Assembly (NCBI GenBank): GCA_015061945.1
Contig: SUVP01000003.1
Span: 248,001 to 312,000, forward strand
Source of the DNA: Opitutales bacterium
Lineage (GTDB): Bacteria; Verrucomicrobiota; Verrucomicrobiia; Opitutales; Intestinicryptomonadaceae
Length of the DNA stretch: 64,000 nt
Direction of reading: 5' to 3'
In this document: one piece after another, positions 1,297-50,266 of the stretch
How the letters are laid out: every line of letters starts with the position of its first letter
Numbering within the stretch: position 1 is the stretch's first letter
Notes under the pieces: generated by a model
What the model saw: only the letters and a program-made list of their open reading frames with translations
What the model was told of the DNA's origin: nothing
The model's database searches: none
Made by a program: the position numbers and the translations under genes

Positions 1297-3429
1297 ATGG
1301 AACAACAATATAGCGTAGAGGTAAAAGACCTCGGCATAAAAATCTCGACAGGTACAATCGCAAAACAAGCGAATGGTTCTGTCACAATCTCACTCGGCGA
1401 AACTACTTTGTTAGTTAACGCCACAGCAGCTGGTGCACTCAGAGACGGGCAAGACTTCTTCCCATTGACAGTTGACTACCGCGAAACATACTCGGCTGCT
1501 GGTAAATTCCCTGGAGGCTATTTCAAGCGTGAAGGTCGTCCAAGCGAAAAGGAAATTCTTACATCGCGTCTTTGCGACCGTCCACTTCGTCCACTTTTCC
1601 CAAAAGGCTTTATGAACGAAGTTCAAGTTATCGGTTTGCTTCTCTCAGCCGATATGGTCAATGAGCCAGACATCCTTATGGTTAACGGTGCGTCTGCTGC
1701 TATGCTCATTTCTGATATTCCGTGGAACGGACCAGTTGGTTGCGTACGTCTCGGTGAAATCGACGGACAATTTGTTGTAAACCCAACTCACGAGCAAATG
1801 CTCGATTCAACTCTCGACCTCATTTACGTCGGTAACGAACGTGAAATGATGATGATTGAAGGTTCGGCTGAACAAATCCCAGTTGACCGTTTTGTTGAAG
1901 CCTTGGAATTTGCTCAAAACGAAATCCAAAAGATTATCGAAGCACAAAAGGAACTCGCAAGACTTTGTGGAAAACAAAAACGTGAATTCCCGCTTATCGT
2001 TTGCAAACCAGAAATCCTCGATATGTGCAAAGAATATGTCGGTGGACGTTTGCTCGACGCAGTATTCCAAGACAAGAAACTTCAACGCCAAGCAGATATC
2101 GATGCTTTGATGAACGAAACTGCTGAAGTTGTTAAGGAAAAAGTTGGCGAAGAAAACTTCGATATGGCACAAATCAAGATGGCTTTTGAAGTCTTGCAAG
2201 AAGAAGTTTATCGTGAAAATATCCTCGATGCAGGTAAGCGTTGCGACGGCAGAACTTATACAGATCTCCGCAAAATTTGGTGCAAAACAAATGTTCTCCC
2301 ACGTGTACACGGTAGTGCACTCTTCACTCGTGGCGAAACTCAAGCACTTGTAATGACGACTCTCGGCACAACTAAAGATGTTCAAGAACTCGATGGTTTG
2401 ACAGGTGGCACAAAACAAAAATCGTTCATCTTGCACTATAACTTCCCACCATACTCGGTTGGCGAAACTGGCCGTTTCGGTTCTCCAGGACGTCGTGAAA
2501 TCGGACACGGGAACCTTGCAGAACGTTCGCTCTTGCCAGTACTTCCATCAGAAGATGAATTCCCATACGCAATTCGTCTCGTATCTGAAATTATGGAATC
2601 GAACGGATCGACATCTATGGCATCTGTTTGCGGTGGTTGCTTGAGCCTTATGGACGCAGGCGTTCCGATTGAAACTCCTGTTGCTGGTATCAGCTGTGGC
2701 TTGGTAACTCGTTTCGACGAAAACGGAAAACTCCTCAAGCACGTTGTTCTCACCGACATCATCGGTGCTGAAGACCACTATGGCGATATGGACTTCAAAA
2801 TTTGCGGTACAAAAAATGGTATCACAGGCTTCCAGCTCGACCTCAAAATTCAAGGTTTGCCAATGGATATCGCAAAAGAAGCAATCTATCGCAACCGTGA
2901 TACGAGAATGCAAATTCTCGAAATTATGCAGTCTGAAATCGAAAAGCCAAATACAGATCTTAAGCCAACAGCTCCACGCATCAAGACAATGCAAATCGAT
3001 CCAGATAAAGTTGGTATGCTTATCGGACCAGGAGGAAAGAATATCCGCCGTATCGTCGAAGTGTCGGGAGCACAAATCGATATTGATGACGAAAACCCAG
3101 GTCGCGTACTCGTCTATGCAACAAGCTCGGCAAGTATGGATAGAGCAGTTTCTGAAATCGAACTTGTTACAGGCGAAATCGAAGTTGGTAAAACATATCG
3201 TGGTATCGTTCGTTCGATTAAAGAATTTGGTGCATTTGTTGAATGTCTCCCTGGAAAAGAAGGCTTGGTACACATTTCTGAACTTGCAGATTTCCGTGTA
3301 AACAAGACTGAAGACGTTTGCAAACTCGGCGACGAAATCAAAGTAAAGTGCATTGGTATCGACGATAAGGGTAGAGTGAAACTCTCACGTCGTGCAGCAC
3401 TTTTCGACGAACAAAACGCAAATAAATAA
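1297..3429 (+). CDS. pnp: Polyribonucleotide nucleotidyltransferase (PNPase)
   Basis: The 710-residue protein has the complete PNPase layout: two RNase PH-like halves joined by a helical linker, a KH domain from about residue 565 with the RNA-binding loop [11 protein letters not shown], and an S1 domain from about 627 to 701 ([19 protein letters not shown]). The second core carries [13 protein letters not shown] and the phosphorolytic-site region [20 protein letters not shown]. PNPase degrades mRNA from the 3' end by phosphorolysis and usually works with RNase E or a helicase. The ATG at 1297 is preceded by AGGAAAG at good spacing. It lies directly downstream of rpsO, the classical arrangement, and ends at its own terminator. 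Confidence 0.98.
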
Positions 3430-3474
3430 GCGAGATTAAACATCGAGCGTCGCTAAAACCCGACGCAAAAACAA

Positions 3475-3510
3475 AGAGACAAGCCGAGATAAGCTTGTCT
3501 CTTTTGTTTT
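3475..3510 (+). terminator. Intrinsic terminator after pnp
   Basis: AGAGACAAGC and GCTTGTCTCT form a perfect 10-bp stem around an 8-base loop, followed by a T-rich tail. Confidence 0.9.
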
Positions 3511-3530
3511 GAAGTTTTTTAATAAAAAGA

Positions 3531-3559
3531 TTGCATTAGTAATAGTGTTTTGAGATTAT
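3531..3559 (+). promoter_or_regulatory. Possible sigma-70 promoter for the lpxA operon
   Basis: TTGCAT at 3531-3536 and GATTAT at 3554-3559 are 17 bases apart, just after the pnp terminator and about 25 bases before the first ATG of the operon. The match is moderate. Confidence 0.35.
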
Positions 3560-3583
3560 TTTTTTGGAATTTTGCGGGAGATA

Positions 3584-5242
3584 ATGCAGTTTTTTGTCAA
3601 TTTTGTAATATCATTTTTGCGTCTTGTTGCGGGAGTTTTTGTTTTGATTCTTGCATCGGGAATACCTGCGTATTTTGTTGCAGTCGATAAAGAGGCAGTT
3701 GTTTCGGCTGGTAAGAAAACTTCTATGCCCATTGATGTTGCACGGATTTATTTTGATGGTGCAAAACTCTCAACTGCTATGCTTATTGCCAACGCTTCGG
3801 CAGAATCAGACGAGCTAAAATCGGCAGTGGATTCTTTATATAAATTGCATCCAAATTGGAAGATTGCAGGTGGCGATGAACCATTTTTTGATGCGTTTCA
3901 ATCGAGCCTATTTTCAAAAGATTCGCCACAACAAAATGGATATTCAGTTTACTCGATTTTGTCGCTTGGGGAAAATCGCAAAAAAATGTTAGATTTTTTG
4001 TCGCAATCGCAAACTGGGCTTGTCGCAAAATTTCTTGCGTTGCGTAAAATGACATCTGTCATTCTTCCGCCAGTTTACACATCGGCAGGTGCTCCGCTTG
4101 AATCGGCTTTGTTGACAAGTGCATTGCTTGCACAAACAGGCGACTTCACGCCAGCGTTTCTCAAAGACGTTTCTTATACCTTGAATTTGATGAAGGGCGA
4201 CTCGGCATCGAAAGAGCGATTCGAAAAATACTGCGTTGGGTTATTGACTCTTATGCGAGATATGGATTGGACACTTTTGCGTTCTTTCTTCCCGCATTTT
4301 AACTCGCTTGATGATGTATATGATTTTGCACGTGTGTATAAATCGGCAAAGACTGAAAGTTTGCGTAATGTATTTGCATCGGGCGTTTTGATGTGTGGCG
4401 ATGTCCGATTAACTTGCGATTATTTGCGTTCGGCAGACGAAGAAAAATGGCGAGACTTCGCATTTGCATTTCTCAATGGCGAGGGTGGTCTGAAATTTTT
4501 AATCGAACAAAATAAACCGATATATCGCACGAGTTGGGGGACATCTTGTATAGAGCCGATTGTGGAGCCTATCAAAGAATATTTTGGTGCGTTGGCGGTT
4601 GAATATCCACACGGACTCTTAACGTTAAAAGTAATCTTAAGCATATTTGGTGGATACCTTTTTATACGTGGATTATTGCGTTTGTTCGTGCCGAATAGAG
4701 ACACGCCGTCGTGGGCGTCTCCACTTGCGTTGGCTCGTGGATTTTTCCAAGGTGCGATAGTTTCGTTAGTATTTTTTATCTTGGTTGAACCTAACGCATT
4801 TAAGATAAAAGTAGACGATAATCCGCAACCAGAATTAAAATTTTCATTTGAAAAAATCGCAAACACAATACAGGAAGAAACTATGAAGTTTGAAACAGAT
4901 ACTGCAACTTTGTCGGCTATCGGACTATTTTTTGTCCTTCAGTTGACCGTCTATATTCTTGGCGTAATTCGCATTTGGTCGATTCGCAGAATAAATGCAC
5001 CTGCAAAGCTCAAACTAAAACTACTCGAAAACGAAGACAATTTGTTCGACCTCGGGCTTTATATCGGCTTGGCTGGGACAGTCGTGTCGCTCATATTGTT
5101 GTCGATTGGTATCGTTACAGCAAGTTTGATGGCGGCGTATGCGTCTACTCTCTTTGGGATTTTATTTACATCGATGATAAAAATCATACACGTCAGAAAA
5201 TATAAACGTCAGCTCATAATCGAAGCAGAAAAGGATAACTAA
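3584..5242 (+). CDS. Membrane protein of unknown function with ExbB/MotA-like C-terminus
   Basis: About 552 residues. An N-terminal membrane segment (FVISFLRLVAGVFVLILASG) leads to a region of about 300 residues that looks extracytoplasmic. Helices follow near 340-360 (LKVILSIFGGYLFIRGLLRL) and 385-400, and a last pair spans about 440-520. The final stretch, LYIGLAGTVVSLILLSIG and ASLMAAYASTLFGILF, resembles the paired helices of MotA/TolQ/ExbB proton-channel subunits, with a basic cytoplasmic tail. That resemblance is my inference, and no clear channel acid is obvious. I chose the ATG at 3584, with GGGAG just upstream, over an in-frame TTG at 3572 that lacks a ribosome-binding site. It lies 4 bases before lpxA, so it is probably co-transcribed with it and may serve the envelope. 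Confidence 0.75.
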   Translation: MQFFVNFVISFLRLVAGVFVLILASGIPAYFVAVDKEAVVSAGKKTSMPIDVARIYFDGAKLSTAMLIANASAESDELKSAVDSLYKLHPNWKIAGGDEPFFDAFQSSLFSKDSPQQNGYSVYSILSLGENRKKMLDFLSQSQTGLVAKFLALRKMTSVILPPVYTSAGAPLESALLTSALLAQTGDFTPAFLKDVSYTLNLMKGDSASKERFEKYCVGLLTLMRDMDWTLLRSFFPHFNSLDDVYDFARVYKSAKTESLRNVFASGVLMCGDVRLTCDYLRSADEEKWRDFAFAFLNGEGGLKFLIEQNKPIYRTSWGTSCIEPIVEPIKEYFGALAVEYPHGLLTLKVILSIFGGYLFIRGLLRLFVPNRDTPSWASPLALARGFFQGAIVSLVFFILVEPNAFKIKVDDNPQPELKFSFEKIANTIQEETMKFETDTATLSAIGLFFVLQLTVYILGVIRIWSIRRINAPAKLKLKLLENEDNLFDLGLYIGLAGTVVSLILLSIGIVTASLMAAYASTLFGILFTSMIKIIHVRKYKRQLIIEAEKDN

Positions 5243-36240: not shown

Positions 36241-36275
36241 AAAAATGGTGGATAAATTTATCCACCATTTTTTTA
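36241..36275. terminator. Bidirectional terminator
   Basis: AAATGGTGGATAAATTTATC with its mirror forms a long perfect palindrome ending in T8. It closes both the GH42-like gene and the convergent LacI-linked operon. Confidence 0.92.
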
Positions 36276-37175
36276 TTTAAAATCGTAATAAATATTCCAT
36301 ATAAACAAATCGTTTGGTTGAATATTTATATCGGTAAATGGCTCTGGGCAGACGCACGTCGGCGATGTCCAAAAGTTCATTTTTGAATTTGGCTTATCCG
36401 ATGTAATGCGAACTTGGCAGAGCTTTTTATCAACTTTGCTTTCGGCTAAAATATCGTATGCATCGATCGTATTTGGCGTTTGGATATTTTTCAAAAGTAC
36501 AAATTCACCTTCTGGGATTTCTGATTTTAACGCAATTTTATTTGCGTTAATTTCGGCTAATTGGTTAAACCCCGCAATCTGTTCGCCATTCCAATCAAAT
36601 GTAGACTTTATGTTTGTTGAAGCATTGATGTTGTCTGAAAATGTCAAAAAATTATGATTGTAAACGGCTGTACAAATGGGAGAAACACCTGTATTTTTCA
36701 GCTCGTGTGAGATTGTCATTCTCGAACGGCTTGCATCAAAAGTTATAGTTTTTTTGTAAACGTAAGCATATTTTGTGTCTTGCAGAGTGTGTAGAAATCT
36801 TACCCCATTTTCGATTTCTTCAACAATACGTTCCCCACTATTTATAACAGGGTAGGTATATCGAAAGTTGTATGGTTGGTCAGAATCTTTTTGTAAAATC
36901 CCAACGCCAATTTTCAGAAAACTATCGCCAACTTTTGCGGAATCGTAGCCGATTTGCGAGAATTCTTCGACTGCACCTGATATTGCGTCGTGAAAAGTTT
37001 TGTCGCTTTGGTCGGTCCATTTTCCGAAGTATTCAACATTGTCGAATTTTATCGAAGCCGATACGCCAGCACGATCGAATCGAGTGCCTAAATAGGACAT
37101 CGTGGAATCGTCGGCACCAGCGTAAAATACGGCTTCAAATTTGCCCGTTAAAATTTTTATTTTTGGCAAGTTCAT
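36273..37175 (-). CDS. Aldose 1-epimerase (mutarotase)-like protein
   Basis: The 300-residue protein has the galactose-mutarotase beta-sandwich pattern. TFDASRSRMTISHELKNTG is the central strand pair, YNHNFL carries a conserved His, and TSPTCVCPEPFTDINIQPND ends with the PEPF motif common in mutarotase-like proteins. It would interconvert sugar anomers in the cytoplasm or simply bind sugar. There is no signal peptide. It is the last gene of the LacI-linked operon, 1 base after the MFS gene, which supports a sugar as the operon's substrate. Confidence 0.82.
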   Translation of the reverse strand: MNLPKIKILTGKFEAVFYAGADDSTMSYLGTRFDRAGVSASIKFDNVEYFGKWTDQSDKTFHDAISGAVEEFSQIGYDSAKVGDSFLKIGVGILQKDSDQPYNFRYTYPVINSGERIVEEIENGVRFLHTLQDTKYAYVYKKTITFDASRSRMTISHELKNTGVSPICTAVYNHNFLTFSDNINASTNIKSTFDWNGEQIAGFNQLAEINANKIALKSEIPEGEFVLLKNIQTPNTIDAYDILAESKVDKKLCQVRITSDKPNSKMNFWTSPTCVCPEPFTDINIQPNDLFIWNIYYDFK

Positions 37176-37176
37176 C

Positions 37177-38508
37177 TTATGGATTGTAATAGTTGTCGCG
37201 ATTACGGATTACACTCGGCAAGAGGATTACCAACGCCAAACCGAAAAATCCGAGCGATGCACAGATGAGGAAAATTGTCTGATAATTGTTGAATGTGAAT
37301 CCACCATAGTTCCACGAGGTCGAGAGAATTCCACCTAAAAGTAGGAAAGACGACGCCACTCGTGAAAAGCCCATCCCCATCATCTGATAAGTTTGGCAAA
37401 GTGCTGTCGACATCGGGACATTCCCTGGCTTTGCAAGCGAGAGTGTTTCTTGCGAGAATGCACAATAGAAGCATGCGAATGCAAAGTTGCCAAAGAATAA
37501 CAATACGCCTGCAATTTCTGCAACGTACGGTGTTTTTTCTCCGCAGAAGAAGAAACTGAGAGGAATGAGAATAAACAATGTATGAATCATAAACTGCATA
37601 TTTCTGATTCCAATTTGACGCACGAGTTTTCCGTAAACGAAGAAGCCCAAAACGTATCCGAAAATTCCGACCGAAGAAATAATCTGTACGATATTGTCGC
37701 CACAATGCAGACCTTTTTTAAGGTAGAGCATCGGGAGTGGGAGAACTGTCATATACGCAAAACTTATAAAGCAGATATAAATGCAAAATCCCACAAGCGA
37801 GCTGTTCGAGAGTGCTTCTTTGACCGATTTCCCAATGTTGCGTTTTACTTCAACGTGATCGGGAATTTTAATTTTCGATATGAAAATAATTCTGCCGATA
37901 ACTAAAATACCAGTCATTGCGATAACCGTCTGCAAGACCCACGCAGGTGGCTTTTCTCCCATCGCAAAGCCGACGAGCGAGAGAATCGACGCACTCAAAA
38001 TGTAGTATGAAAAACGCATAAACCCGAAGAAGTCGCCACGTTCTTTGGGTAGCAAAATGTTCGAGAGTAGGGGCATCCACGCACCCATCCAAAGTGGTTT
38101 TGAAATGCAGAAAATAAAGCATCCGGTAAATGCGACATATTTTCCCATTCCACCAAAAAATGCTCCCGACGCCATCATCAAATACGAAGCTAACGCAATA
38201 TAACAAGAAATGTTGATAACACGTTTAGCTCCCAATTTATCGACGATTCTGGCTGTCGGGATTAGCAGGAACATCGAGACCATACCAACCAAACTTGTCG
38301 AAAGCATAATCATAGATTCGCTACCACCAAGCATAGCCAAGTACAGAATTATGATTGCACTATTGTCCATTACAACGTCGGTAAAACATCCGAACCAAGT
38401 AGACGCATACGCAAACATTCTGTATTTTTTTCTTGTATCTGCACCGAGCGATTCTGCGTAAACTTGTGGATCGATTGGTGCAATATTTGAAGTCTGATTT
38501 TCCTGCAT
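37177..38508 (-). CDS. MFS transporter
   Basis: The 443-residue protein has about 12 membrane helices, with the major facilitator loop motif IPTARIVDKLGAKRVI between helices 2 and 3, and a related loop later (VYGKLVRQIGIRN). The N-terminal 30 residues are cytoplasmic. Family knowledge allows import of sugars or other small solutes; the substrate cannot be read directly. It lies 23 bases after the third QueG-like gene and 1 base before the mutarotase-like gene, so it most likely imports the compound handled by the operon. Confidence 0.88.
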   Translation of the reverse strand: MQENQTSNIAPIDPQVYAESLGADTRKKYRMFAYASTWFGCFTDVVMDNSAIIILYLAMLGGSESMIMLSTSLVGMVSMFLLIPTARIVDKLGAKRVINISCYIALASYLMMASGAFFGGMGKYVAFTGCFIFCISKPLWMGAWMPLLSNILLPKERGDFFGFMRFSYYILSASILSLVGFAMGEKPPAWVLQTVIAMTGILVIGRIIFISKIKIPDHVEVKRNIGKSVKEALSNSSLVGFCIYICFISFAYMTVLPLPMLYLKKGLHCGDNIVQIISSVGIFGYVLGFFVYGKLVRQIGIRNMQFMIHTLFILIPLSFFFCGEKTPYVAEIAGVLLFFGNFAFACFYCAFSQETLSLAKPGNVPMSTALCQTYQMMGMGFSRVASSFLLLGGILSTSWNYGGFTFNNYQTIFLICASLGFFGLALVILLPSVIRNRDNYYNP

Positions 38509-38531: not shown

Positions 38532-39470
38532 TTATTGTCCGTCGATTGAGAGCGACCATTGTGGACGCTTTCTGAATGGCGTCTTGAATTTTCTGTTCAA
38601 CACGCCTTTTTCTTCGAGGTGAACATAACATTCGGTATCGCACGCTTTACCACATATACTTGCACAGTATGCGTGTTTAATTGGTGGATAGAAGTGTGTG
38701 CGATCAATAATATCTTTTGCACGTTCTGGCGAAAGTTTTGCTTCGCCCGATATCACTGCGAGCTTTTCTTCGATATCATCGTATGCGTCAGTTGGCATAA
38801 ATGGATTTTTAGTTCTGTTTGCACCCATATAATACGCCGCACATTGCCATACGTCGAGCTTGCCGTCGGCACTCAAAGCTTTTCCAGGGCAGGCTTTGAC
38901 GCACTTGCCACATTTGTCGCAAAGGTGTGGTTCGACAATCGGATCGGCTTCAAGTTCTGCATCGGTCAAGATGAAAACATAGCGTTGGCACGGACCGAAA
39001 TCATCGGTAAGAATCGAGCCAGAAAGCCCACGTTCACCGAGTCCACAATCGACAGCACATTGCTCGAAATTCATTTGATTTTCTGCAACTTTGCCATGAT
39101 AAATTTCAGCGTAATCAACTTCTGGATTTGTCGAGCCTTCGCCATTCATAATGAGTTGGTTTCTACGTTGTGGCAAAGCGTCGAAACCAGCTTCTTCGAG
39201 AACTTCGCATGCACGCAAGAGTGCCAACGGCATAACAGTTTCTTCGAGCGTTTCGACTGCATTTGTCGTGTATTGGTAGTATGTAGAACCTTCTTCGATT
39301 CCACGTCTTGCTCCACGAAGTTGACGGAATGCCGCACAGATAACAGTTTTTGTTTCTGGCATAATTTTCAAGATAGCACTGTCGCTCATTCTTTCAATAT
39401 TGCCAAAACGCACGATATCGGCTCCGTCCTTTTTGAGACGTTCAATTATTTGTTCTTTTAAATTTTTCAT
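38532..39470 (-). CDS. QueG-like double-cluster 4Fe-4S protein, paralogue 1
   Basis: About 312 residues of the COG1600/QueG-like group. The N-terminal domain has FGNIERMSD and the shared segment RRGIEEGSTYYQYTT. CDKCGKCVKACPGKALS is a classical 4Fe-4S motif, and CASICGKACDTECYVHLEE provides further Cys for a second cluster. True QueG reduces epoxyqueuosine in tRNA using cobalamin and two clusters. Three divergent copies in one sugar-type operon are unlikely all to serve queuosine. I start at the ATG at 39470, which overlaps the preceding stop by 4 bases. Function is unassigned. Confidence 0.82.
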   Translation of the reverse strand: MKNLKEQIIERLKKDGADIVRFGNIERMSDSAILKIMPETKTVICAAFRQLRGARRGIEEGSTYYQYTTNAVETLEETVMPLALLRACEVLEEAGFDALPQRRNQLIMNGEGSTNPEVDYAEIYHGKVAENQMNFEQCAVDCGLGERGLSGSILTDDFGPCQRYVFILTDAELEADPIVEPHLCDKCGKCVKACPGKALSADGKLDVWQCAAYYMGANRTKNPFMPTDAYDDIEEKLAVISGEAKLSPERAKDIIDRTHFYPPIKHAYCASICGKACDTECYVHLEEKGVLNRKFKTPFRKRPQWSLSIDGQ

Positions 39471-40369
39471 AATGCGTTGATTTCTTTGAGGTGTTTGTAG
39501 CATACCATATCACACTTTCTTCCGCACAAGCATGGCGAGTAGCCCGTTTGGCTTGGAAGGAAGTCGAGTTTAGGATAGATTGCACGAGCAGATTCACGGT
39601 CGAAAACTTTGTCGCCGTTGATGATTGCTTCACGTTCAGGATCGCCTTTGAGGAAGTCGTCTGTCATAAACGGATTCGACTTGTGTGCTCCACGATAGTA
39701 AACAGCACACTGCCAAGTGTTGACATCGTTTTCGCCGATTGCTTTTCCGGGGCAACCTTTGATACATTCATCGCAACCTTCGCAGAAATTTTTTGTGAAA
39801 GGTTCGTCGCATTCAAGTGGAGCGTCTGTAACGATGAATACCAAACGAACAAATGGTCCAATCTTTGGAACAATCAAGTGTCCAGAGCGACCGACTGAAC
39901 CGAGTCCACAAATTTGTGCGGCTTGATTGAAGTCCATAATGATGTCTGGCGGTGGCTTGCTTGCGTTGATTGGTTCGGCGTGAACAAGCTCATAAGTGTC
40001 GATAAGTTCGGGGTTCGTCGTCTTATCGCCTTTGATTCGCAAATTTGAAATATTGCGTTGTAAGCATGCATCATAACCTTCGTTTTCAATGAGACCGCCC
40101 ATTTTCAAAAGGAAAATTTCGGCGAGGTCTTCGTCGATATACTTCACACCAACTTGTGTGTAGTTGAAGTATTGGCGTTGTGCGTCCATTGTTTTATAGA
40201 AAGCACGAGGTACACGGAATCCAAAACCGATAACACATTTTGCATTTGGCAAAATCTGTTTTGGGTCTCGTTGTGGAATAGTGCCTTCAAAATATTTGAT
40301 GTCGCCAATGCCGACTACTGATGCACCAAATTCAATTGCTTTTTCTTTAATAGTTTTTGCGTCTAACAT
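39467..40369 (-). CDS. QueG-like double-cluster 4Fe-4S protein, paralogue 2
   Basis: The 300-residue paralogue carries the same layout. FGASVVGIGDIKYF and LPNAKCVIGFGFRVPRA open the fold, CEGCDECIKGCPGKAIG binds one cluster, and CLCGRKCDMVCYKHLKE near the end supplies the second. It is closest in layout to paralogue 1, sharing the WQCAxYYxGA segment, but lacks the RGIEEG block and has KTMDAQRQYFNYTQV there instead. A strong ribosome-binding site (AAGGAGG) precedes the ATG at 40369. It lies 9 bases after paralogue 3 and overlaps paralogue 1 by 4 bases. Confidence 0.82.
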   Translation of the reverse strand: MLDAKTIKEKAIEFGASVVGIGDIKYFEGTIPQRDPKQILPNAKCVIGFGFRVPRAFYKTMDAQRQYFNYTQVGVKYIDEDLAEIFLLKMGGLIENEGYDACLQRNISNLRIKGDKTTNPELIDTYELVHAEPINASKPPPDIIMDFNQAAQICGLGSVGRSGHLIVPKIGPFVRLVFIVTDAPLECDEPFTKNFCEGCDECIKGCPGKAIGENDVNTWQCAVYYRGAHKSNPFMTDDFLKGDPEREAIINGDKVFDRESARAIYPKLDFLPSQTGYSPCLCGRKCDMVCYKHLKEINAL

Positions 40370-40378
40370 AGTGCCTCC

Positions 40379-41446
40379 TTATCTATCCATTGCCCATGCT
40401 TTGCCGGTACGCAGTGGTTTTTCAAAACGCTCAGCCATACAGCCACCTTTCTTTTCGAGCATACTTACGCATGCACGAATACATCCACCGCACTTTGCCA
40501 TATTGTAGCCGACCCATGTCGGAAAATATTTTTCCAACGCTGAATAAACTTTGAGAATTTCTTGTTCGTTTGCTTGACACTTTCCTTCGAGCAAATCGAG
40601 ATCGCCATTTTCGTTTTTGTCCCAAACTTCCTTTGGTACAAATGGATTATATTTGCGTCCGCCGTGAGTATAGAATGCGTAGCACTTCCATTCATCGAGT
40701 TTGCCCCACTCGCAGACTTTTCCACCGATTGAAACTTTAATACTTTCAGTCGTGCTAAGGCATCCTCCTGGGCATTCTTTCGCACACATCATACAACGAC
40801 GGCAAAGTGGTTTGCCCGAGTAGAGTGGATCTGGCTCAAGTTCAGCATCTGTAAAAATGAAAGCTAATCTTTGCAACGGACCAAATTCTGGCGTGAGGAA
40901 CATTTTGCTCCAGCCCATTTCACCGAGTCCGCAAGCTACACCTGCCAAGCGGAAGTGGAATTGCAAATCGGGCGGAACTTGACCTTCTCGCGCGGCACGT
41001 GTAAATTGTACTGTTCTGTGGTGGTCGGTCTTTTTCTTTGCTTGCTCCATCACTTGAATTTGTTCTTCAGGCGAAAGAGTATTCCCTGGGGTAGCGTCCA
41101 TATCTGATACGCAACCACGAGCCCCTGTGTTGCGGTAAACTGCAGCTTCGTATCCGTAGTCTTCAATGAGTTTCCCAACGTGGTAAAGTACGGCAGGTGC
41201 GTAAATTTCGTTAATACCGCCGTATGCCATTGACGGATATTGATAGAATTGCGTTCCTTCTTCAATTCCACGTTGAACTCCGCGTGGAATACGGAACACC
41301 ATTCCGATTACTGATTTTGCTTCTGGAAATATGTAGCGAGGGTCCATTTCTTTCGGAGCACCGTCGAACCTATCCATACTTCCGATTCCGCATAGATCCG
41401 CTCCTGCGGCTAATGCGGCGTCTTTGACCATTTGGCTGGTTAGCAT
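40379..41446 (-). CDS. QueG-like double-cluster 4Fe-4S protein, paralogue 3
   Basis: The 355-residue paralogue is the longest of the three. It has AAGADLCGIGSMDRFDGAPK and RGVQRGIEEGTQFYQYPS at the N-terminus. An extra central segment (about residues 120-160, GARGCVSDMDATPGNTL) is absent from the other two. Cluster motifs are CRRCMMCAKECPGGC and, near the end, AKCGGCIRACVSMLEKKGGC. The last differs from the pattern of the other copies, so the second cluster may be bound differently. Its start overlaps the U32-like stop by 7 bases. It is the first Fe-S paralogue transcribed. Confidence 0.82.
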   Translation of the reverse strand: MLTSQMVKDAALAAGADLCGIGSMDRFDGAPKEMDPRYIFPEAKSVIGMVFRIPRGVQRGIEEGTQFYQYPSMAYGGINEIYAPAVLYHVGKLIEDYGYEAAVYRNTGARGCVSDMDATPGNTLSPEEQIQVMEQAKKKTDHHRTVQFTRAAREGQVPPDLQFHFRLAGVACGLGEMGWSKMFLTPEFGPLQRLAFIFTDAELEPDPLYSGKPLCRRCMMCAKECPGGCLSTTESIKVSIGGKVCEWGKLDEWKCYAFYTHGGRKYNPFVPKEVWDKNENGDLDLLEGKCQANEQEILKVYSALEKYFPTWVGYNMAKCGGCIRACVSMLEKKGGCMAERFEKPLRTGKAWAMDR

Positions 41447-42453
41447 TGTTTTATTCCTTCCGTTTTATCTAATGTTATTGTTGCGTTTTTTTGAATTAAA
41501 TTGCAGTATCCGCAAGCTTCGCAATTCTTGGTGCAGTTGAGGCGATTCTGTGCGTACTCTTGTGGGATTTTCGAGTTGTCGATAATCGACGGGTACAAAT
41601 GTCCTGAATGCGACGGCTCCGTTAAATCGAGAATATTTCCGCCAAATTTTTTTGAACAATATGCTTCGATTATTGCAGATGGATTTCTCGATGTTCGTGT
41701 CGCCAATTTTATGCCGTCGCATAAGTCTTCAAATAAATATGTATCTTCTGGACGGATAAAATTCAATCTTCGCAAAAGAGTCAAATGCGATTCTTTATTT
41801 TTGAGAAAATCGTGGCACATTCCGTGGAACTCAAAAGCGTTGTCCATTTCGGCAATCTCGTGTTGATGGGCGACAAGATTGTCGTGGAAAGTGCGGGCAG
41901 GGCAGAAATTCAAACATCCACTATTTGCGAGAATATAAAGCTTCTTGCCGTTTTGCTCGCACCATTTTTTCATAGATTGAAGTCGAGATATGCTCCAATT
42001 AAATTCTCTTTTTGCGTAGAATCCGTCGAAGTGTTCGGCGAGGTATGCCATTGATTCAGCCGAGCCAATTTCCATATTTACCGATGCACGAACTTCGATG
42101 TCTGGAAAATTCATCTTCACAAACTTTGCGATAATGGGCGATGTTGTAGTAATTGACGATAACGCAAATTTTTCTATCGAGTGGTCGATAGCGTCGCCTA
42201 TTTTATTAAAGAGCGAGCGTGCTTGGGCTCTTGCACCATAGCAGTTGCCGTTGAGGAGCAAGTTGCCTTTTAAGCCTGCTTGTATATATTCAACAAGGTC
42301 GGCTTCCATTTTGGCTTGTTGTTCGATTGTTGGCGTGCCACGCCCAGTTGTAAATCCATAATATGGAAAATACACTTCGCCGATATGTTCTATCAAACGC
42401 AGGGCTGTGCGTTTCATAATGTCATCGGCTTGGTATCCTATTGTAAATTTCAT
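41440..42453 (-). CDS. U32-like / UbiU-like Fe-S protein
   Basis: The 337-residue protein has a TIM-barrel-like N-terminus (IGYQADDIMKRTALRLIEHI, VEYIQAGLKGNLLLNGN). The segment LYILANSGCLNFCPART (Cys180, Cys184) strongly recalls the first Cys pair of the peptidase U32/UbiU/UbiV group. A terminal CTKNCEACGYC (Cys307, 311, 314, 317) could ligate a 4Fe-4S cluster. Relatives UbiU and UbiV take part in oxygen-independent hydroxylation, and others in RNA hydroxylation, so a redox role is more likely than proteolysis. It is first after lacI, with a perfect operator 14 bases before its ATG. Confidence 0.7.
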   Translation of the reverse strand: MKFTIGYQADDIMKRTALRLIEHIGEVYFPYYGFTTGRGTPTIEQQAKMEADLVEYIQAGLKGNLLLNGNCYGARAQARSLFNKIGDAIDHSIEKFALSSITTTSPIIAKFVKMNFPDIEVRASVNMEIGSAESMAYLAEHFDGFYAKREFNWSISRLQSMKKWCEQNGKKLYILANSGCLNFCPARTFHDNLVAHQHEIAEMDNAFEFHGMCHDFLKNKESHLTLLRRLNFIRPEDTYLFEDLCDGIKLATRTSRNPSAIIEAYCSKKFGGNILDLTEPSHSGHLYPSIIDNSKIPQEYAQNRLNCTKNCEACGYCNLIQKNATITLDKTEGIKQC

Positions 42454-43588: not shown

Positions 43589-46500
43589 ATGAAGTTTTCT
43601 CGCATATTTTCATTGAGTATTTTTTTGTTGTTTGCATCTGCAACAAGTACTTTTGCTCAAAATTTAAAAAATTGCCATTGTTATGTAAATTTAATGGCAA
43701 AGTCGAAAATTGAATTTGTTTCAGAGGTCAAGGGAGCGTCTGCCCAAACGGGTACTATTGGTGAAGATTATCGCAAGAAAAACGTTTTGCGATTCTTCTA
43801 TAAATCTGACGCACCAAATGAGTGGAAAAATGTATCGATAAAATTCAAGGCTCATTCATCGGATACGGTTAATATCTGTCTTTCATCGTCGGAACAAAAA
43901 GGCAAAGACGGAAAAATTCTACCTATTGCAACGTATTACGATGATGTGAAAGTTAACGGGAAACTTTTGCCTAATGGAGATTTCTCGAAAGACTTTTTAG
44001 ATTGGCATATTTCTTTCGCTGGTAATGAAAAACTTTTGCCTAAAATAATTCAAACAAAAGAGATTGTCAAAGACGGCAAATGTGCACGCATAACTCGCAA
44101 AGGGCAGATTTCTCAAACTATAAAAGTTAAAGCTGGCGAGGTTTACGAGCTGTCTTTTTCAATGCGTTATGCTGGAATTTTTAATCCACTCGATGACGAT
44201 ATGGCATTGGATTTTTCGGATAGTTTTAACGACAATTCTGCTACGATGAAAAAAATAAAAGTAGCTTTGCCCAATCCAAAAATTTCAGAGGAAGGTACAC
44301 TCATTAACGGAATCAGATTTAAATCTACCAAGGTAAAAGGGAGAAGTGCGTTGATTTTACGCAACAAACTTTTGCCGTCGGTAAAGAGTAGGGTTGATGT
44401 AAAAGTAAATGAAAATCAAGCAAGGGCTCGATATTTTTATTTTGTGCATACAGCATCGAGTGCGATGCCTAAAAACACTCATTCAATCGGCAGAGTGCTT
44501 ATGACGACAAAGTCGGGTAAGCTCATTAAAAATGACGTTAATTATAAGCATGCGTATGGGTACCAAGACGAAAAAATCAATGGTTTAAATGCAAAGCCAT
44601 ATAAAGTTGATGGCGGAACTGTTTATTTTTCGCGGTTTGCGATGCCTGAAAATGATCTTGTTGATACGATTTCATTTGTAAGTTTTTATAAGTCGCCATG
44701 GGTTATTTACGCAGGAACTTTTTCTGATACGAATGTTTATCCGTTTGAAATTTTTCAACCAAATGCAGATGAGTGGTCGTATGCAGATGTTCCAAATACA
44801 TATTACGATGTTGAGAAAAAATCGGCACTCGATTTATCTGAAATGGTCTTTACGCCTACTCCAGCTGGGGCGACTGGCAGAGCGATTGTGTCGCCACGTG
44901 GGACTATCGCATTTGAAAAAACTCCAGAGACGGATGCAAAGTTCAAATCATTTTCTCTTTGGCAAGCAAGTTTATTCAGACACATTCCAGCAGAGGAACG
45001 CAAAGATTTTATCCGTAAGTTTGCTGTAAATGTTCGCAAGCAAGGTTACAATCTTGTGAGAATTAAATTAGATTTCTTGAAGGATTTTTGCGACAAGCCA
45101 CACAAGCCAGAATTATTTGATATGACCGATTTCCTTCTGTCTGAATTCAAAAAGAATGGTATATATTATCAGATAATTTTTGGAACGTATGCAGATGGTC
45201 GCAAGGATTATAAATTTGGCGTGCATAACGATGTCAAAATGGAAATTATTATCGGCGAAGAAAAGTCGTGGCAACGCTGGAAAGATAGTGCAATAGAATT
45301 CCTCGAACACATAAATCCGTACACTGGGTATGCGTGGAAAGATGAGCCATCGTTGCTTTGCGTTGAATATTACAACGAACTCACAAATTCATTAGGGCGT
45401 TTGTATCAACTTACGCCAGCTTTACGTGATGCGACTATCGCAAAGTTTTTGACATATTTGAAAGCAAAATACAAAACTATCGACGATTTAAACAAAGCTT
45501 GGAATGACGCTAATTTTATATCGACAAAATTTGATTTCAAAAGTTTTGATGACCTAAAAAAATATAACATATATGCTCGCAACTGCGATTGGCTCGCATT
45601 TGGTTGGGAACATATCAACAAGTTTGGCAAGTTTGCCGAAGATGTCGTGAAATCGACAGGCTACAAAGGGCTTGTCTGCGAGTGCAATACCGCTGCGACA
45701 TTTACAGCACTCGAGTATGCTAATCGTTTTGCAGATGTTGCGATTGTTAATCGGTATTTTTCACATCCGAGTGGCTTTGGTGGCACTAATGTTTCTTGCT
45801 CCCAAGATAGTGCAGTTGCGGGATATTGGATTAATGATTTAGTTTCTCGTGGATTTAATAATCGCCCATATTCAATCACCGAATACAACTATTGTTTTTG
45901 GAATAAGCATCGCTACGAGGCGTTAGTTTTGATTGCACCTTACTGTGCGTATCAAAATATGTCGGCAATGACAATTCACCAAGATCCTTTCCCAATTAGG
46001 AAAAAAGTAAATCCACGTATGGGAACATTTACAGTAGGAGGTTCTCCGCTTATGCGTGCGAGCGAATTGTTGATGTCGTGCTTCTTTATGCGGGGCGATG
46101 TAAAGCCCGCAAAGCACAGAGTTGATATGACAATTACCGATGATTTCTTGCGTACGCTTTCTGCAAATAAAGCGAGAAATCCGTTGCAAACATCTATTTC
46201 ATCTTTGACTGGATTCAGAATGAAATACGAAAAAATGGATTACCTTTCGGCATTGAAAAATGTTAAGACAAAGCACGCAGATATCGAAATAGCTCCGATT
46301 GGTTCGGCTATACTCAAGCAAGAAGAGTGGTTTCAAGAAGTTCTTGCTGACAAAAGTTCTGACTCTTTTAATCTCGAAAAGTTTGTAGGTCAGTTGCGTG
46401 AAAAGGGTATTCTTGCAGAATCAAACAAGACCGATATAAAGCGAGGGATTTTCCAAACCGATACCGAACAAATTACTCGTGATATCAAAAATATCTCGAT

Positions 46501-46939
46501 GAGTGTTATAACAGATTACTCCGAAGCAGTTGCGATGAAAACTCCCAAGCAGATGCGTTTGTCAAAGTTGAAAGTACTTTCGAGTACAGAGCCAGCGACA
46601 ATCGGTGTATGTTCTATCGACGGCAAAAAGCTCGGTGAAAGTTTGCGTATGGTTTTCATTTATGCGACACGAGAAGTAAACGAAGATATGAAAACATCGT
46701 TCGATAATTCTTATGCAATCACAATCGGAACAAAAAATATTATGCTTAAAAATGGGATTGTGAAAGCGGAGTTGCGTGTTGACGACTCTAAAAAATATAC
46801 AGTGTATCCGCTGTCGTTAAATGGTGTGCGACGTGAAAAACTTCAGATGCCAGTTGTGGATGGCGTAATGAAAATTTCGATAGATAATTCAAAACTTAAA
46901 TATGGAGCAACGACAATGTTTGAAATTGTCGCAGAGTAA
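43589..46939 (+). CDS. Large exported clan GH-A glycosidase, copy 1
   Basis: The 1116-residue protein has a signal peptide (MKFSRIFSLSIFLLFASATSTFAQ). A carbohydrate-binding-like beta-sandwich follows at about residues 30-200. A second beta region leads to a TIM barrel from about 430. EYYNEL places the acid/base at Glu597, and SITEYNY the nucleophile at Glu765, the two-Glu pattern of retaining clan GH-A enzymes. The C-terminal third holds beta-rich domains (VITDYSEAVAMKTPKQ). I cannot assign a numbered family or substrate. It forms an operon with the paralogue 18 bases downstream and faces the LacI-linked operon across a shared operator. Confidence 0.78.
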   Translation: MKFSRIFSLSIFLLFASATSTFAQNLKNCHCYVNLMAKSKIEFVSEVKGASAQTGTIGEDYRKKNVLRFFYKSDAPNEWKNVSIKFKAHSSDTVNICLSSSEQKGKDGKILPIATYYDDVKVNGKLLPNGDFSKDFLDWHISFAGNEKLLPKIIQTKEIVKDGKCARITRKGQISQTIKVKAGEVYELSFSMRYAGIFNPLDDDMALDFSDSFNDNSATMKKIKVALPNPKISEEGTLINGIRFKSTKVKGRSALILRNKLLPSVKSRVDVKVNENQARARYFYFVHTASSAMPKNTHSIGRVLMTTKSGKLIKNDVNYKHAYGYQDEKINGLNAKPYKVDGGTVYFSRFAMPENDLVDTISFVSFYKSPWVIYAGTFSDTNVYPFEIFQPNADEWSYADVPNTYYDVEKKSALDLSEMVFTPTPAGATGRAIVSPRGTIAFEKTPETDAKFKSFSLWQASLFRHIPAEERKDFIRKFAVNVRKQGYNLVRIKLDFLKDFCDKPHKPELFDMTDFLLSEFKKNGIYYQIIFGTYADGRKDYKFGVHNDVKMEIIIGEEKSWQRWKDSAIEFLEHINPYTGYAWKDEPSLLCVEYYNELTNSLGRLYQLTPALRDATIAKFLTYLKAKYKTIDDLNKAWNDANFISTKFDFKSFDDLKKYNIYARNCDWLAFGWEHINKFGKFAEDVVKSTGYKGLVCECNTAATFTALEYANRFADVAIVNRYFSHPSGFGGTNVSCSQDSAVAGYWINDLVSRGFNNRPYSITEYNYCFWNKHRYEALVLIAPYCAYQNMSAMTIHQDPFPIRKKVNPRMGTFTVGGSPLMRASELLMSCFFMRGDVKPAKHRVDMTITDDFLRTLSANKARNPLQTSISSLTGFRMKYEKMDYLSALKNVKTKHADIEIAPIGSAILKQEEWFQEVLADKSSDSFNLEKFVGQLREKGILAESNKTDIKRGIFQTDTEQITRDIKNISMSVITDYSEAVAMKTPKQMRLSKLKVLSSTEPATIGVCSIDGKKLGESLRMVFIYATREVNEDMKTSFDNSYAITIGTKNIMLKNGIVKAELRVDDSKKYTVYPLSLNGVRREKLQMPVVDGVMKISIDNSKLKYGATTMFEIVAE

Positions 46940-46957
46940 AATTTTAAATAAAATATT

Positions 46958-49900
46958 ATGAAAAAATCGATGTTAAAATTATTGTGTTTGTGTGTTTGTT
47001 TTCTTGCGTCGCTGACGATGTTTGCACAAGAAAAGAAACTGAATTCAGATGTACATTTGAGAATCATATCTCGCATAAAGCTTGAATTTATCGAGGATGC
47101 AGGGGGGCGTATTGTCGTTCAACCATTGCCCGAGAAAGGCGAAAATGGCTGTATGATAAAATATTTAAAACCACTAAAAAATAATAAATGGCAAAAAGTG
47201 TCTTTAAAATTCAAGGCATTGCAATCGGGCAACACTCACTTTAGTTTTTATATGAGAGATAAGCGTGGCTTGAAAAACGCAATGGCTGGTTATTTGGACG
47301 ATGTGAAAATCGACGGAGTGCTTGTCGAAAATGGCGATTTTAGCAGACGATTTGTACATTGGTCGCCAGAAAAATCAAATGAGTTTCCAATTAAATACAT
47401 ATCAAAAAAGAAATCTAAATATGTTCGTATAAATTCAAAAAAGGGCATATCGAGAACCTTTGTTTTTGAAGCAGGCAAAACTTATGAATTTTCTTTCAGA
47501 GTAAAATCTATTGGCGAACTCAAAGCACACAGCGACGACATATCTGTTAATTTGTCGGATATTGTTAACGTAAATCTTGCTGACAAAAATACTCCGTTTA
47601 TTTCCGATACGTTTGCAAAATTTAATTCTCCAAAATTGTATAACGGAGTTGTGTTTGCTCCGTCGGTATCGGGCGAAAACAATGCGGTAATTTTCCGTAG
47701 TTCAAAATATCTAAATGGATTGCCGTTTACAACTATCAAGCCCGAAAAACCAGCACTTGAAGAACAGTTTATCTATATATTGCACACTGCATGCAACGAC
47801 GCAAAAAGTAATGAAAAAGTTGGGTCGATAACTCTTGTTACCGATCAAGGCAACAAGTATTATCGTGAAATTAAATTCGCAAAAGATGTCGGGTTTTTTG
47901 GCAAGCGTGGTAGTTATAACAACGCTGTTCCGATTGAAATTAGCAAGGGAAAGTTTGTTTATTTTTCGAGAATCGAAATGCCAAATTTTGAAAACGTTGT
48001 CTCGATGTTTGTTTCTGCAGATGAAAAGACAACGTGGGCACTTTTAGGTATAACGATTAGCGACAAGAAAATTTATCCGTTTGAAGTTGCGACTCCTTCA
48101 CCACAAGAATGGACAAAAGCAGACATTCCAGAAGTTTCAAAAATTGTCAAAGGTTCGGCACTCGACTTCTCCGATATGCTGGGAACGCCTATTCCAGCTG
48201 GCTCGGCAGGCAGAGTTATTATATCGGAACGAGGAACTTTGGCATTTGAAAATTCACCTGAAAAAGATGTGCGTTTCCGTTCATACTCATTTTGGAGTCC
48301 ATCGCGATTTGTTATGCTTCCGAAAGAAGAACGTTATGAAAAGATAAAAGATTACGCGTCGAGAGTCCGTGAACAAGGCTACAATCTTGTCAGAATAAAG
48401 CTCGATTATTTGAAGTCGCACATGTACGAAGCGCAACGTGAAGAATTGTATGAATCGACCGATTTCCTCTTGAATGAACTTCGCAAAAATGGTGTGTATT
48501 ATCACTTAATTTTGGGTACTTACGATGACGGCAGAGTCGGCTATAAATACGGAGATCACAACGATGTCAAAATGTACACAATGTTGGGCGATGAGCAAAC
48601 TTTGCAGTTCTGGAAAAAGAATACAATCGAGCTACTTACTCATATAAATAAATATACAGGCGTTGCATACAAAGATGATACAGCACTTCTTTGTGTCGAA
48701 TATTACAACGAACTTACAAATAGTATTGCACGTTTGAATCGCCAAAAACCAGAAACACGCAAAATGGCACTCGAAAGATTTGTAGCGTATCTCAAGACGA
48801 AATACAGCTCGATTGACGAACTCAAAAAAGCGTGGACAGACGCAAAATTCCTAAAACACCCAAAGTTTGATTACAATAGTTTTGACGATATCAATTACAT
48901 TTACACATCATCGCCAGATTGGCAGGAACTTTGTTGGAATGGGATAAATAAATTTGGCGAGTTTGCGGAAAAGGTCGTCAAGGAGGTTGGTTATAAGGGG
49001 ATTATTGGCGAGTGCAACACAGGTGCAACATATGCTGGAATGGACTACGAAAACCGATTCACCGATATGATGATTGTCAATTCTTACTACTCGCATCCGA
49101 GTGGTTTTGGCGGGCAAGATATATCGTGCAATCAAGCGTCAATCTTGAACAAATTTTGGATAAATGGCGTGATTGGCGGACGTGTCAATAATGCACCTTC
49201 GGCAGTTACCGAATACAACTATTGCTTCTGGAACCCTCATAGATACGAGATTTGTGCACTTGTTGCACCATATTGTGCTTTCCAAAATTTCTCGCTGATT
49301 ACTGTTCACCAAGACCCGATTGCATACGACGGAAAATATATACAAGCTGTTGGTGCGTTTTCTGTCGGCAATTCGCCAGTACTTCGTGCGAGTGAATTGT
49401 TAAATATGTGTTTCTTCCAACGTGGCGATGTCAAGCCATCGGCACATCGTGTGAATATGAAAATCACAAACAAGTATCTCAAAACGCCATCGGCTCAAAA
49501 GGCGAGAAACCAAGAACAGACGAAAATAGCGTTGCTTTCGGGCTATACTACTGTTTTTGAAAAAGGTGTATTTCGTGAAAAACTTCAAAATGTAAAAGCT
49601 AAAAAAGCTGATATGGAACTCTATCCGAGTGGCTCGTCTGACTTGCGAAGCGAGGAGTGGTTCCAAGAAATTCTCAACGACAACAATGGCGGTTTCGATT
49701 TAGAAAAGTTTGTGAAAAAAATGCGTGAGAAAGGTATTTTACGCCCGACAAACAAGACTGATATCAAGAATGGAATCTTCCAAACTGATACTGAACAAAT
49801 CACGCTCGATTCACTCAATCGTTCGTTGAGCGTTATAACCGATTGTTCTGAAATCGTCGCAATGGCAAATCCAAAAACAATTCAACTTGGTGCATTGAAA

Positions 49901-50266
49901 GTCATATCGTCGACCGAACCAGCGTCAATCGGCATATGTTCTCTCGACGGCAAGAAGATTCCCGATAGCTCGCGAATGGTCTTTGTGTATGCAACTCGAG
50001 AAGGCAATGCGACAATGAAGATGTCGCCAAACTACGTATTTGCAGTAAGCTTAGGCAAAGGGGTAATCCTCAAAAATGGGATTGTGAAGGCGGAATTGAA
50101 AGTTGACGCATCGAAAAAATACGCAGTTTATCCGTTGTCGTTAAATGGTGATAGACGTGAACGCCTCGAAATGCCAGTCGAAAATGGTGTGATGAAAATC
50201 ACTATCGACAATTCAAAACTCAAATATGGTTCGACTACAATGTTCGAGATTGTCGCAGAGAAATAG
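46958..50266 (+). CDS. Large exported clan GH-A glycosidase, copy 2
   Basis: The 1102-residue tandem paralogue of the preceding gene is collinear from signal peptide (LLCLCVCFLASLTMFAQ) to the C-terminus, both ending near KYGxTTMFEIVAE. The acid/base is Glu585 in EYYNEL and the nucleophile Glu752 in AVTEYNY. The barrel surroundings (YSHPSGFGG, VAPYCAFQN, LITVHQDP) are strongly conserved between the two, while the N-terminal sandwiches differ more, suggesting different binding preferences. No gene follows in the operon; a terminator comes soon after. Confidence 0.78.
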   Translation: MKKSMLKLLCLCVCFLASLTMFAQEKKLNSDVHLRIISRIKLEFIEDAGGRIVVQPLPEKGENGCMIKYLKPLKNNKWQKVSLKFKALQSGNTHFSFYMRDKRGLKNAMAGYLDDVKIDGVLVENGDFSRRFVHWSPEKSNEFPIKYISKKKSKYVRINSKKGISRTFVFEAGKTYEFSFRVKSIGELKAHSDDISVNLSDIVNVNLADKNTPFISDTFAKFNSPKLYNGVVFAPSVSGENNAVIFRSSKYLNGLPFTTIKPEKPALEEQFIYILHTACNDAKSNEKVGSITLVTDQGNKYYREIKFAKDVGFFGKRGSYNNAVPIEISKGKFVYFSRIEMPNFENVVSMFVSADEKTTWALLGITISDKKIYPFEVATPSPQEWTKADIPEVSKIVKGSALDFSDMLGTPIPAGSAGRVIISERGTLAFENSPEKDVRFRSYSFWSPSRFVMLPKEERYEKIKDYASRVREQGYNLVRIKLDYLKSHMYEAQREELYESTDFLLNELRKNGVYYHLILGTYDDGRVGYKYGDHNDVKMYTMLGDEQTLQFWKKNTIELLTHINKYTGVAYKDDTALLCVEYYNELTNSIARLNRQKPETRKMALERFVAYLKTKYSSIDELKKAWTDAKFLKHPKFDYNSFDDINYIYTSSPDWQELCWNGINKFGEFAEKVVKEVGYKGIIGECNTGATYAGMDYENRFTDMMIVNSYYSHPSGFGGQDISCNQASILNKFWINGVIGGRVNNAPSAVTEYNYCFWNPHRYEICALVAPYCAFQNFSLITVHQDPIAYDGKYIQAVGAFSVGNSPVLRASELLNMCFFQRGDVKPSAHRVNMKITNKYLKTPSAQKARNQEQTKIALLSGYTTVFEKGVFREKLQNVKAKKADMELYPSGSSDLRSEEWFQEILNDNNGGFDLEKFVKKMREKGILRPTNKTDIKNGIFQTDTEQITLDSLNRSLSVITDCSEIVAMANPKTIQLGALKVISSTEPASIGICSLDGKKIPDSSRMVFVYATREGNATMKMSPNYVFAVSLGKGVILKNGIVKAELKVDASKKYAVYPLSLNGDRRERLEMPVENGVMKITIDNSKLKYGSTTMFEIVAEK

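Follow-up and report, generated by a model that had tools for sequence, protein, structure and literature searches.

Three adjacent genes on the minus strand of the window, i.e. the whole stretch of 64,000 nucleotides that was analysed, encode proteins (hereafter Q1, Q2 and Q3) that very probably belong to the superfamily of epoxyqueuosine reductases (QueG) and reductive dehalogenases (RDHs), and form a new branch of it. What is known is the fold and the cofactors; what is new is the clade and its partners. To our knowledge, epoxyqueuosine reduction and dehalogenation are the only two functions so far established for this B12/Fe-S superfamily. The reading that we put first, with a probability of about 45%, takes the locus for an inducible catabolic module in which a Q1/Q2/Q3 cobamide reductase and a U32-type protein act on a sugar- or glycoside-derived substrate.

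The first-pass annotation described three diverged QueG-like paralogues in a row at positions 38532-41446, and the three open reading frames are indeed there, on the minus strand. It did not mention the U32 partner, and a description of the system that leaves this out is incomplete: the array continues past 41446, and a U32-like gene at 41440-42453 is part of the set. The genes of the locus and its flanks are the following.

36273..37175, minus strand, mutarotase-like protein (weak match), encoded by the last gene of the same-strand run, a possible operon member
37177..38508, minus strand, MFS transporter directly downstream of Q1, found downstream in related loci too
38532..39470, minus strand, Q1, QueG/RDH-superfamily protein of beta type, about 312 aa (open reading frame as listed, 38532-39503)
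39467..40369, minus strand, Q2, QueG/RDH-superfamily protein of beta type, 300 aa
40379..41446, minus strand, Q3, QueG/RDH-superfamily protein of alpha type, 355 aa, better conserved than Q1 and Q2
41440..42453, minus strand, U32-type Fe-S protein, 337 aa
42514..43485, minus strand, LacI-family regulator, upstream of the set and kept there in five of the seven Victivallales-side loci

Q1 probably starts at 39470, a placement made because its orthologues are mostly 309-315 aa long; its ATG would then overlap the stop codon of Q2 as ATGA, and the same junction, a Q2/Q1 overlap of 4 bases, is found in the Victivallales record L005. A GGAGG Shine-Dalgarno sequence precedes the ATG of Q2, and the U32-type gene overlaps the start of Q3 by 7 bases, in L005 as in the window. 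The order U32-Q3-(cupin)-Q2-Q1 was found in 21 genomes read in detail, which come from two phyla and belong to the Victivallales-like lineage of the window or to Clostridia: the genome of the window, five others of its genus, L005, the Clostridia record L006 (from a water-buffalo caecum) and 13 more of the order of L006; three contigs (L086 and L088 among them) end within or before a terminal gene of the set. A chance arrangement or an artefact of gene prediction was ruled out, since 20 genomes besides that of the window keep the reading frames, the order and the overlaps. In L056 the U32 gene is divergent, and on the contig of L086 none was seen, so that it need not be co-transcribed with the Q genes.

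In the sample taken of the window's order, this gene set (module A) was present in 6 of 273 genomes, all of one genus. Orthologues of Q3 were found in further families of the phylum (80-87% identity) and in the class Clostridia (mostly 73-78%). The Q3 protein of the window is 74-77% identical to those of L054, L055 and L056, which are of the same genus, and mostly 74-80% identical to those of Clostridia; when the same genomes are compared, the identity is 74-82% for Q3 versus 53-55% for true QueG, the latter figure being within the genus. Such identities would fit strong constraint together with horizontal spread of the module. A plasmid search for related proteins returned only a true RDH, and viral contigs held no relative of Q3 and a single orphan copy of the U32 gene. 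The latter (L137, 5001-6026), carried by an IMG/VR 'viral' contig whose surroundings look bacterial, is of this subfamily and adjoins a rubrerythrin-like gene. Tandem pairs of Q3-like genes were also observed in other families of the phylum (G1287:C93, G1299:C87, G1315:C73, G1365:C192 and G1346:C75).

Pfam recognised only ferredoxin motifs in Q1, Q2 and Q3, and scores against the family models stayed far below the curated cut-offs, which are 200 bits for TIGR00276 (QueG) and 160 bits for TIGR02486 (RDH): 41, 47 and 24 bits, respectively, with the former and 41-54 bits with the latter. Profile searches of the PDB with the Q proteins retrieved QueG and RDHs, and beyond those only ferredoxins; comparison with QueG by hhalign gave a probability of 99%. 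The AlphaFold models of Q3 and of the U32 protein reached only medium to low confidence (pLDDT of 66 and 56), being built on thin alignments of 11 and 4 sequences, without templates in the case of Q3. QueG was the best structural match of the Q3 model, with a Z of 17.2 over 210 residues (rmsd 3.5), and PceA gave a Z of 15.9 over 216 residues (rmsd 3.0); the top 22 rows were all QueG or RDH, followed by the B12 proteins CblC/CblD (Z 8-10) and then by flavin nitroreductases. CblC and CblD (MMACHC, MMADHC) have a B12-binding fold related to that of the Q3 model, but they are without the Fe-S module and their match is far weaker than those of QueG and RDHs. Together with the HMM comparisons and the invariant cysteines, its model places Q3 in the superfamily, where Q1 and Q2 are placed by their sequences. 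A B12-binding nitroreductase-type fold with a two-cluster module is a well-supported prediction for Q3, and by homology for Q1 and Q2; we infer that the three proteins bind the corresponding cofactors. Thirteen of the 14 carrier genomes tested hold other B12-domain proteins, and no cobalamin riboswitch was found near the locus.

The three proteins align over their full length, with 63 invariant columns in common and pairwise identities of 35% (Q1-Q2), 32% (Q1-Q3) and 29% (Q2-Q3). As first described, they have in common the cluster motif CxxCxxCxxxCP. Eight cysteines, which fits two [4Fe-4S] clusters, are invariant in every orthologue of Q1, Q2 and Q3 (in Q1, with the 323-aa numbering, residues 195, 198, 201, 205, 221, 284, 288 and 292); Q2 has nine within its Fe-S module. 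The second cysteine sets had been given as CGGCIRAC for Q3 and as CxCGxxC or CxxxCGxxC for the others. The window does read so, but the first cysteine of the CxxxCGxxC of Q1 (C280) occurs in 6 of 19 orthologues, and the sets conserved in the orthologue alignments are CxxxCxxxC for Q1 and Q2 and CxxCxxxC for Q3. The extra central segment attributed to Q3 is in fact two segments, at about residues 107-160 and 232-247. The RGIEEG block, reported absent from Q2, is missing from it and from 21 of 21 Q2 orthologues; it is present in the Q1 of the window, and the form G[IV]EEG is found in 18 of 19 Q1, 21 of 21 Q3 and all the sister-family members scanned. Since G[IV]EEG is common to the alpha and beta types and lost in all Q2, the latter is the specialised member of the trio.

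Whether long-branch rows were included in the trees or left out, Q1, Q2 and Q3 each formed one clade with 100% bootstrap, separate from the QueG clade (100/100) and from the RDH clade (100/99). A recent tandem duplication was ruled out, each copy being an old separate clade. The phylogeny with true QueG and RDHs, which the first-pass annotation had proposed as a test, thus leaves the three proteins outside QueG, and they lack its catalytic motifs: all 12 QueG rows have DYH and VD[TA][SG]P, whereas the 61 module A proteins have neither. Its view that the copies are not redundant also holds, in that three separate orthologous clades are kept together and in order in the 21 genomes of two phyla. 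With QueG (TIGR00276; PDB 5d6s, 5d08, 5t8y) the Q proteins would share the B12-binding nitroreductase-type fold, the two [4Fe-4S] clusters with their eight cysteines and an acid near the cobalt; besides the two motifs, they differ from it by their identity (22-34%, over parts of the length), by their separate clade and by being a trio co-inherited with a U32 protein. With PceA and NpRdhA (TIGR02486; PDB 4ur3, 8q4h, 4ras) they would share the fold and the cluster arrangement (Z about 15-16). By profile scores RDHs are as near as QueG, and the proteins might be RDHs that work in the cytosol on natural organohalides. We find this decidedly improbable: they lie far under the RDH cut-off and in a clade of their own, have no Tat signal (0 of 61 module A proteins) and carry Asp or Glu instead of the PceA-type Asn at the position discussed below, and sugar-type regulators and glycosidases are nearby. 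No RDH above the cut-off was found in 141 genomes of the class.

Asp130 of QueG has been equated with Asn272 of PceA, and Tyr101 with Tyr246 (PMC4646009). Equivalences in the Q proteins were derived from sequence spacing anchored on these published positions, not from superposed coordinates: counted back from the conserved GLG, PceA Asn272 stands at -13 and QueG Asp130 at -14. An acid occupies position -13 in 61 of 61 proteins, being Asp in 21 of 21 Q3 (Asp160 in the window), Asp or Glu in 21 of 21 Q2 (Asp142) and Glu in 19 of 19 Q1 (Glu141); it sits one residue off QueG Asp130, in a different motif context. At the spacing of Tyr246 there is an invariant Glu (E80 in Q3, E80 in Q2, E88 in Q1), another difference from PceA, the comparison being with the PceA-type site. 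Such a pattern speaks for acid-assisted, QueG-like chemistry in a different pocket. The ferredoxin module, together with a match to the model of corrinoid reductive activases that is weak and covers the ferredoxin part only, might also suggest electron-transfer or corrinoid-activating proteins devoid of catalysis of their own, for example proteins that activate a corrinoid methyltransferase or supply the U32 protein with electrons; the predicted B12-type fold and the acid conserved beside the position of the cobalt make this improbable, and no corrinoid methyltransferase was present among the neighbouring proteins scanned.

The U32 protein of the window had no Pfam match. PF01136 was matched weakly by 10 of the 26 family members (best E 7e-4), hhalign gave an E of 5e-4 with a probability of only 32%, and the best PDB profile match was 5d88 (E 0.02). 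This U32 structure was also the top Foldseek match of the model (E 4e-5), in which the N-terminal half is alpha/beta and confident and the C-terminal half of low confidence; the product of gene 41440-42453 is thus predicted to be a U32 protein by family and fold. Four cysteines (C71, C180, C184 and C213) are invariant in 26 of 26 members, with a spacing of C71-X108-C-X3-C-X28-C; the published U32 patterns are CX6CX15CX3/4C and those of UbiU and UbiV (PMC6747719). The 5d88 fold match, the weak PF01136 matches and the four invariant cysteines liken the protein to UbiU/UbiV, RlhA and TrhP (PF01136; PDB 5d88); it differs from them in its cysteine spacing, in a C-terminal CxxxCxxCxxC that most members have in addition, and in having B12-type proteins as partners. 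The C-terminal motif is missing in L090, L092, L097 and L098 (alignment A2), and the second putative cluster is therefore optional. U32 proteins of known function are O2-independent hydroxylases, and their mechanism is an open question (PMC11574389). As RNA modification is the task of QueG and of several U32 proteins (PMC4646009; PMC11574389), the locus could be thought to serve queuosine or some other RNA modification through extra QueG-type and U32-type (RlhA/TrhP-like) enzymes. This is very hard to reconcile with the presence, elsewhere in the genome of the window, of a separate true QueG (L004; TIGR00276 236 bits, above the cut-off), and with the want of DYH and VD[TA][SG]P in Q1-Q3; the patchy distribution, the inducible-type regulators and the carrier fit catabolism better.

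As to whether the three proteins are subunits or successive steps, both of which had been suggested, the pairs and fusions of sister families favour subunits. Pairs of an alpha and a beta with no U32 gene nearby (module C) were found in L104-L113, and a form of only two genes, for a U32 protein and one alpha, in L099, L101-L103, L114 and L115. In L118 a 597-aa alpha/beta fusion (1882-3675), placed directly behind a 308-aa unit of the same superfamily, has its N half in the module C alpha clade (98/97) and its C half in the module C beta clade (100/99). The deep alpha/beta split is moderately supported (85/88 and 82/79 in one tree, 80/89 in the other). Because sister families occur as alpha/beta pairs and fusions, module A looks like one alpha (Q3) with two betas (Q1, Q2), and by the same analogy we lean towards a hetero-oligomer of Q3, Q1 and Q2 rather than separate enzymes. 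A series of three independent B12-dependent reductases, which would convert different intermediates of a single pathway one after the other, would be compatible with the fact that all three keep both cluster sets and the acid at the catalytic position, so that each could be a full enzyme, and with the divergence of Q2 around the RGIEEG loop, a region that could determine substrate specificity. This is nevertheless unlikely in view of the strict co-occurrence of Q1, Q2 and Q3 and of the alpha-beta pairs and fusions, which are the usual signature of subunits. Two-unit QueG/RDH-like proteins of 738-790 aa were also encountered (L116 6056-8428, L117 9851-12169, L120 4249-6465 and L121 3871-6090); some of these double-headed proteins have an extra degenerate N-domain between the units, and AraC regulators adjoin those of L116 and L117.

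Regulators, carriers and glycosidases point to inducible catabolism of a sugar or glycoside. Besides the LacI gene of the Victivallales side, AraC-type regulators are neighbours of the module at 9 of the 14 module A loci of Clostridia, where contig ends truncate several of the remaining loci, and at 6 of 7 module B loci and 9 of 10 module C loci. An MFS carrier follows Q1 in the window and in L053, L054 and L055, and a protein of the nucleoside-H+ symporter family does so in L056. In four loci of Clostridia (L094 12201-13931, L095 11029-12717, L087 1-453 and L088 3987-5918) a glycosidase-like DUF5696 gene abuts the module, and in L055 one lies further off; the domain is uncharacterised, the literature on it held nothing relevant, and we note it as a substrate lead. 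A GH3 gene is found just upstream of the module in L097, and that of an FAD oxidoreductase upstream in L054. Glycosidases are abundant in the carrier genomes, and their adjacency is therefore a soft clue. In the window, two adjacent GH42-like paralogues (43589-46939, 1116 aa, and 46958-50266, 1102 aa) are divergent from the LacI gene. Tentatively, the substrate could be a carbohydrate-derived compound with a C-O bond.

In the inducible catabolic module that we put first, a sugar- or glycoside-derived small molecule would enter via the MFS carrier and be sensed by the LacI or AraC regulator. Q3 (alpha) and Q1/Q2 (beta) would assemble as a hetero-oligomer in the cytosol, each unit binding a base-off cobamide and two [4Fe-4S] clusters from which electrons would pass to the cobamide. 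The cob(I)amide would then attack or reductively open a C-O bond of the substrate, and the conserved Asp/Glu near the cobalt would protonate the leaving oxygen, as proposed for QueG. The U32 protein might activate or rearrange the substrate, by hydroxylation or dehydration chemistry, before or after reduction; module C, with no U32 gene nearby, counts against the proposal. Its most far-reaching form, in which anaerobic gut bacteria would possess a hetero-oligomeric cobamide enzyme of three different B12/2[4Fe-4S] units that, with a U32 Fe-S protein of a new subtype, removes or moves oxygen on a compound derived from a sugar or glycoside, as a third functional branch of the superfamily, is rather unlikely. 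The literature searched, which leaves out most subscription journals, held no report pairing QueG/RDH-like with U32 proteins.

To conclude, caution is called for in naming such genes epoxyqueuosine reductase. If the proposal is true, a third functional branch would stand beside QueG and RDH, and U32 proteins would be tied to catabolism. A widespread third branch, usually multi-component and U32-coupled, would widen the known cobamide chemistry in the gut and would give U32 proteins a metabolic setting.
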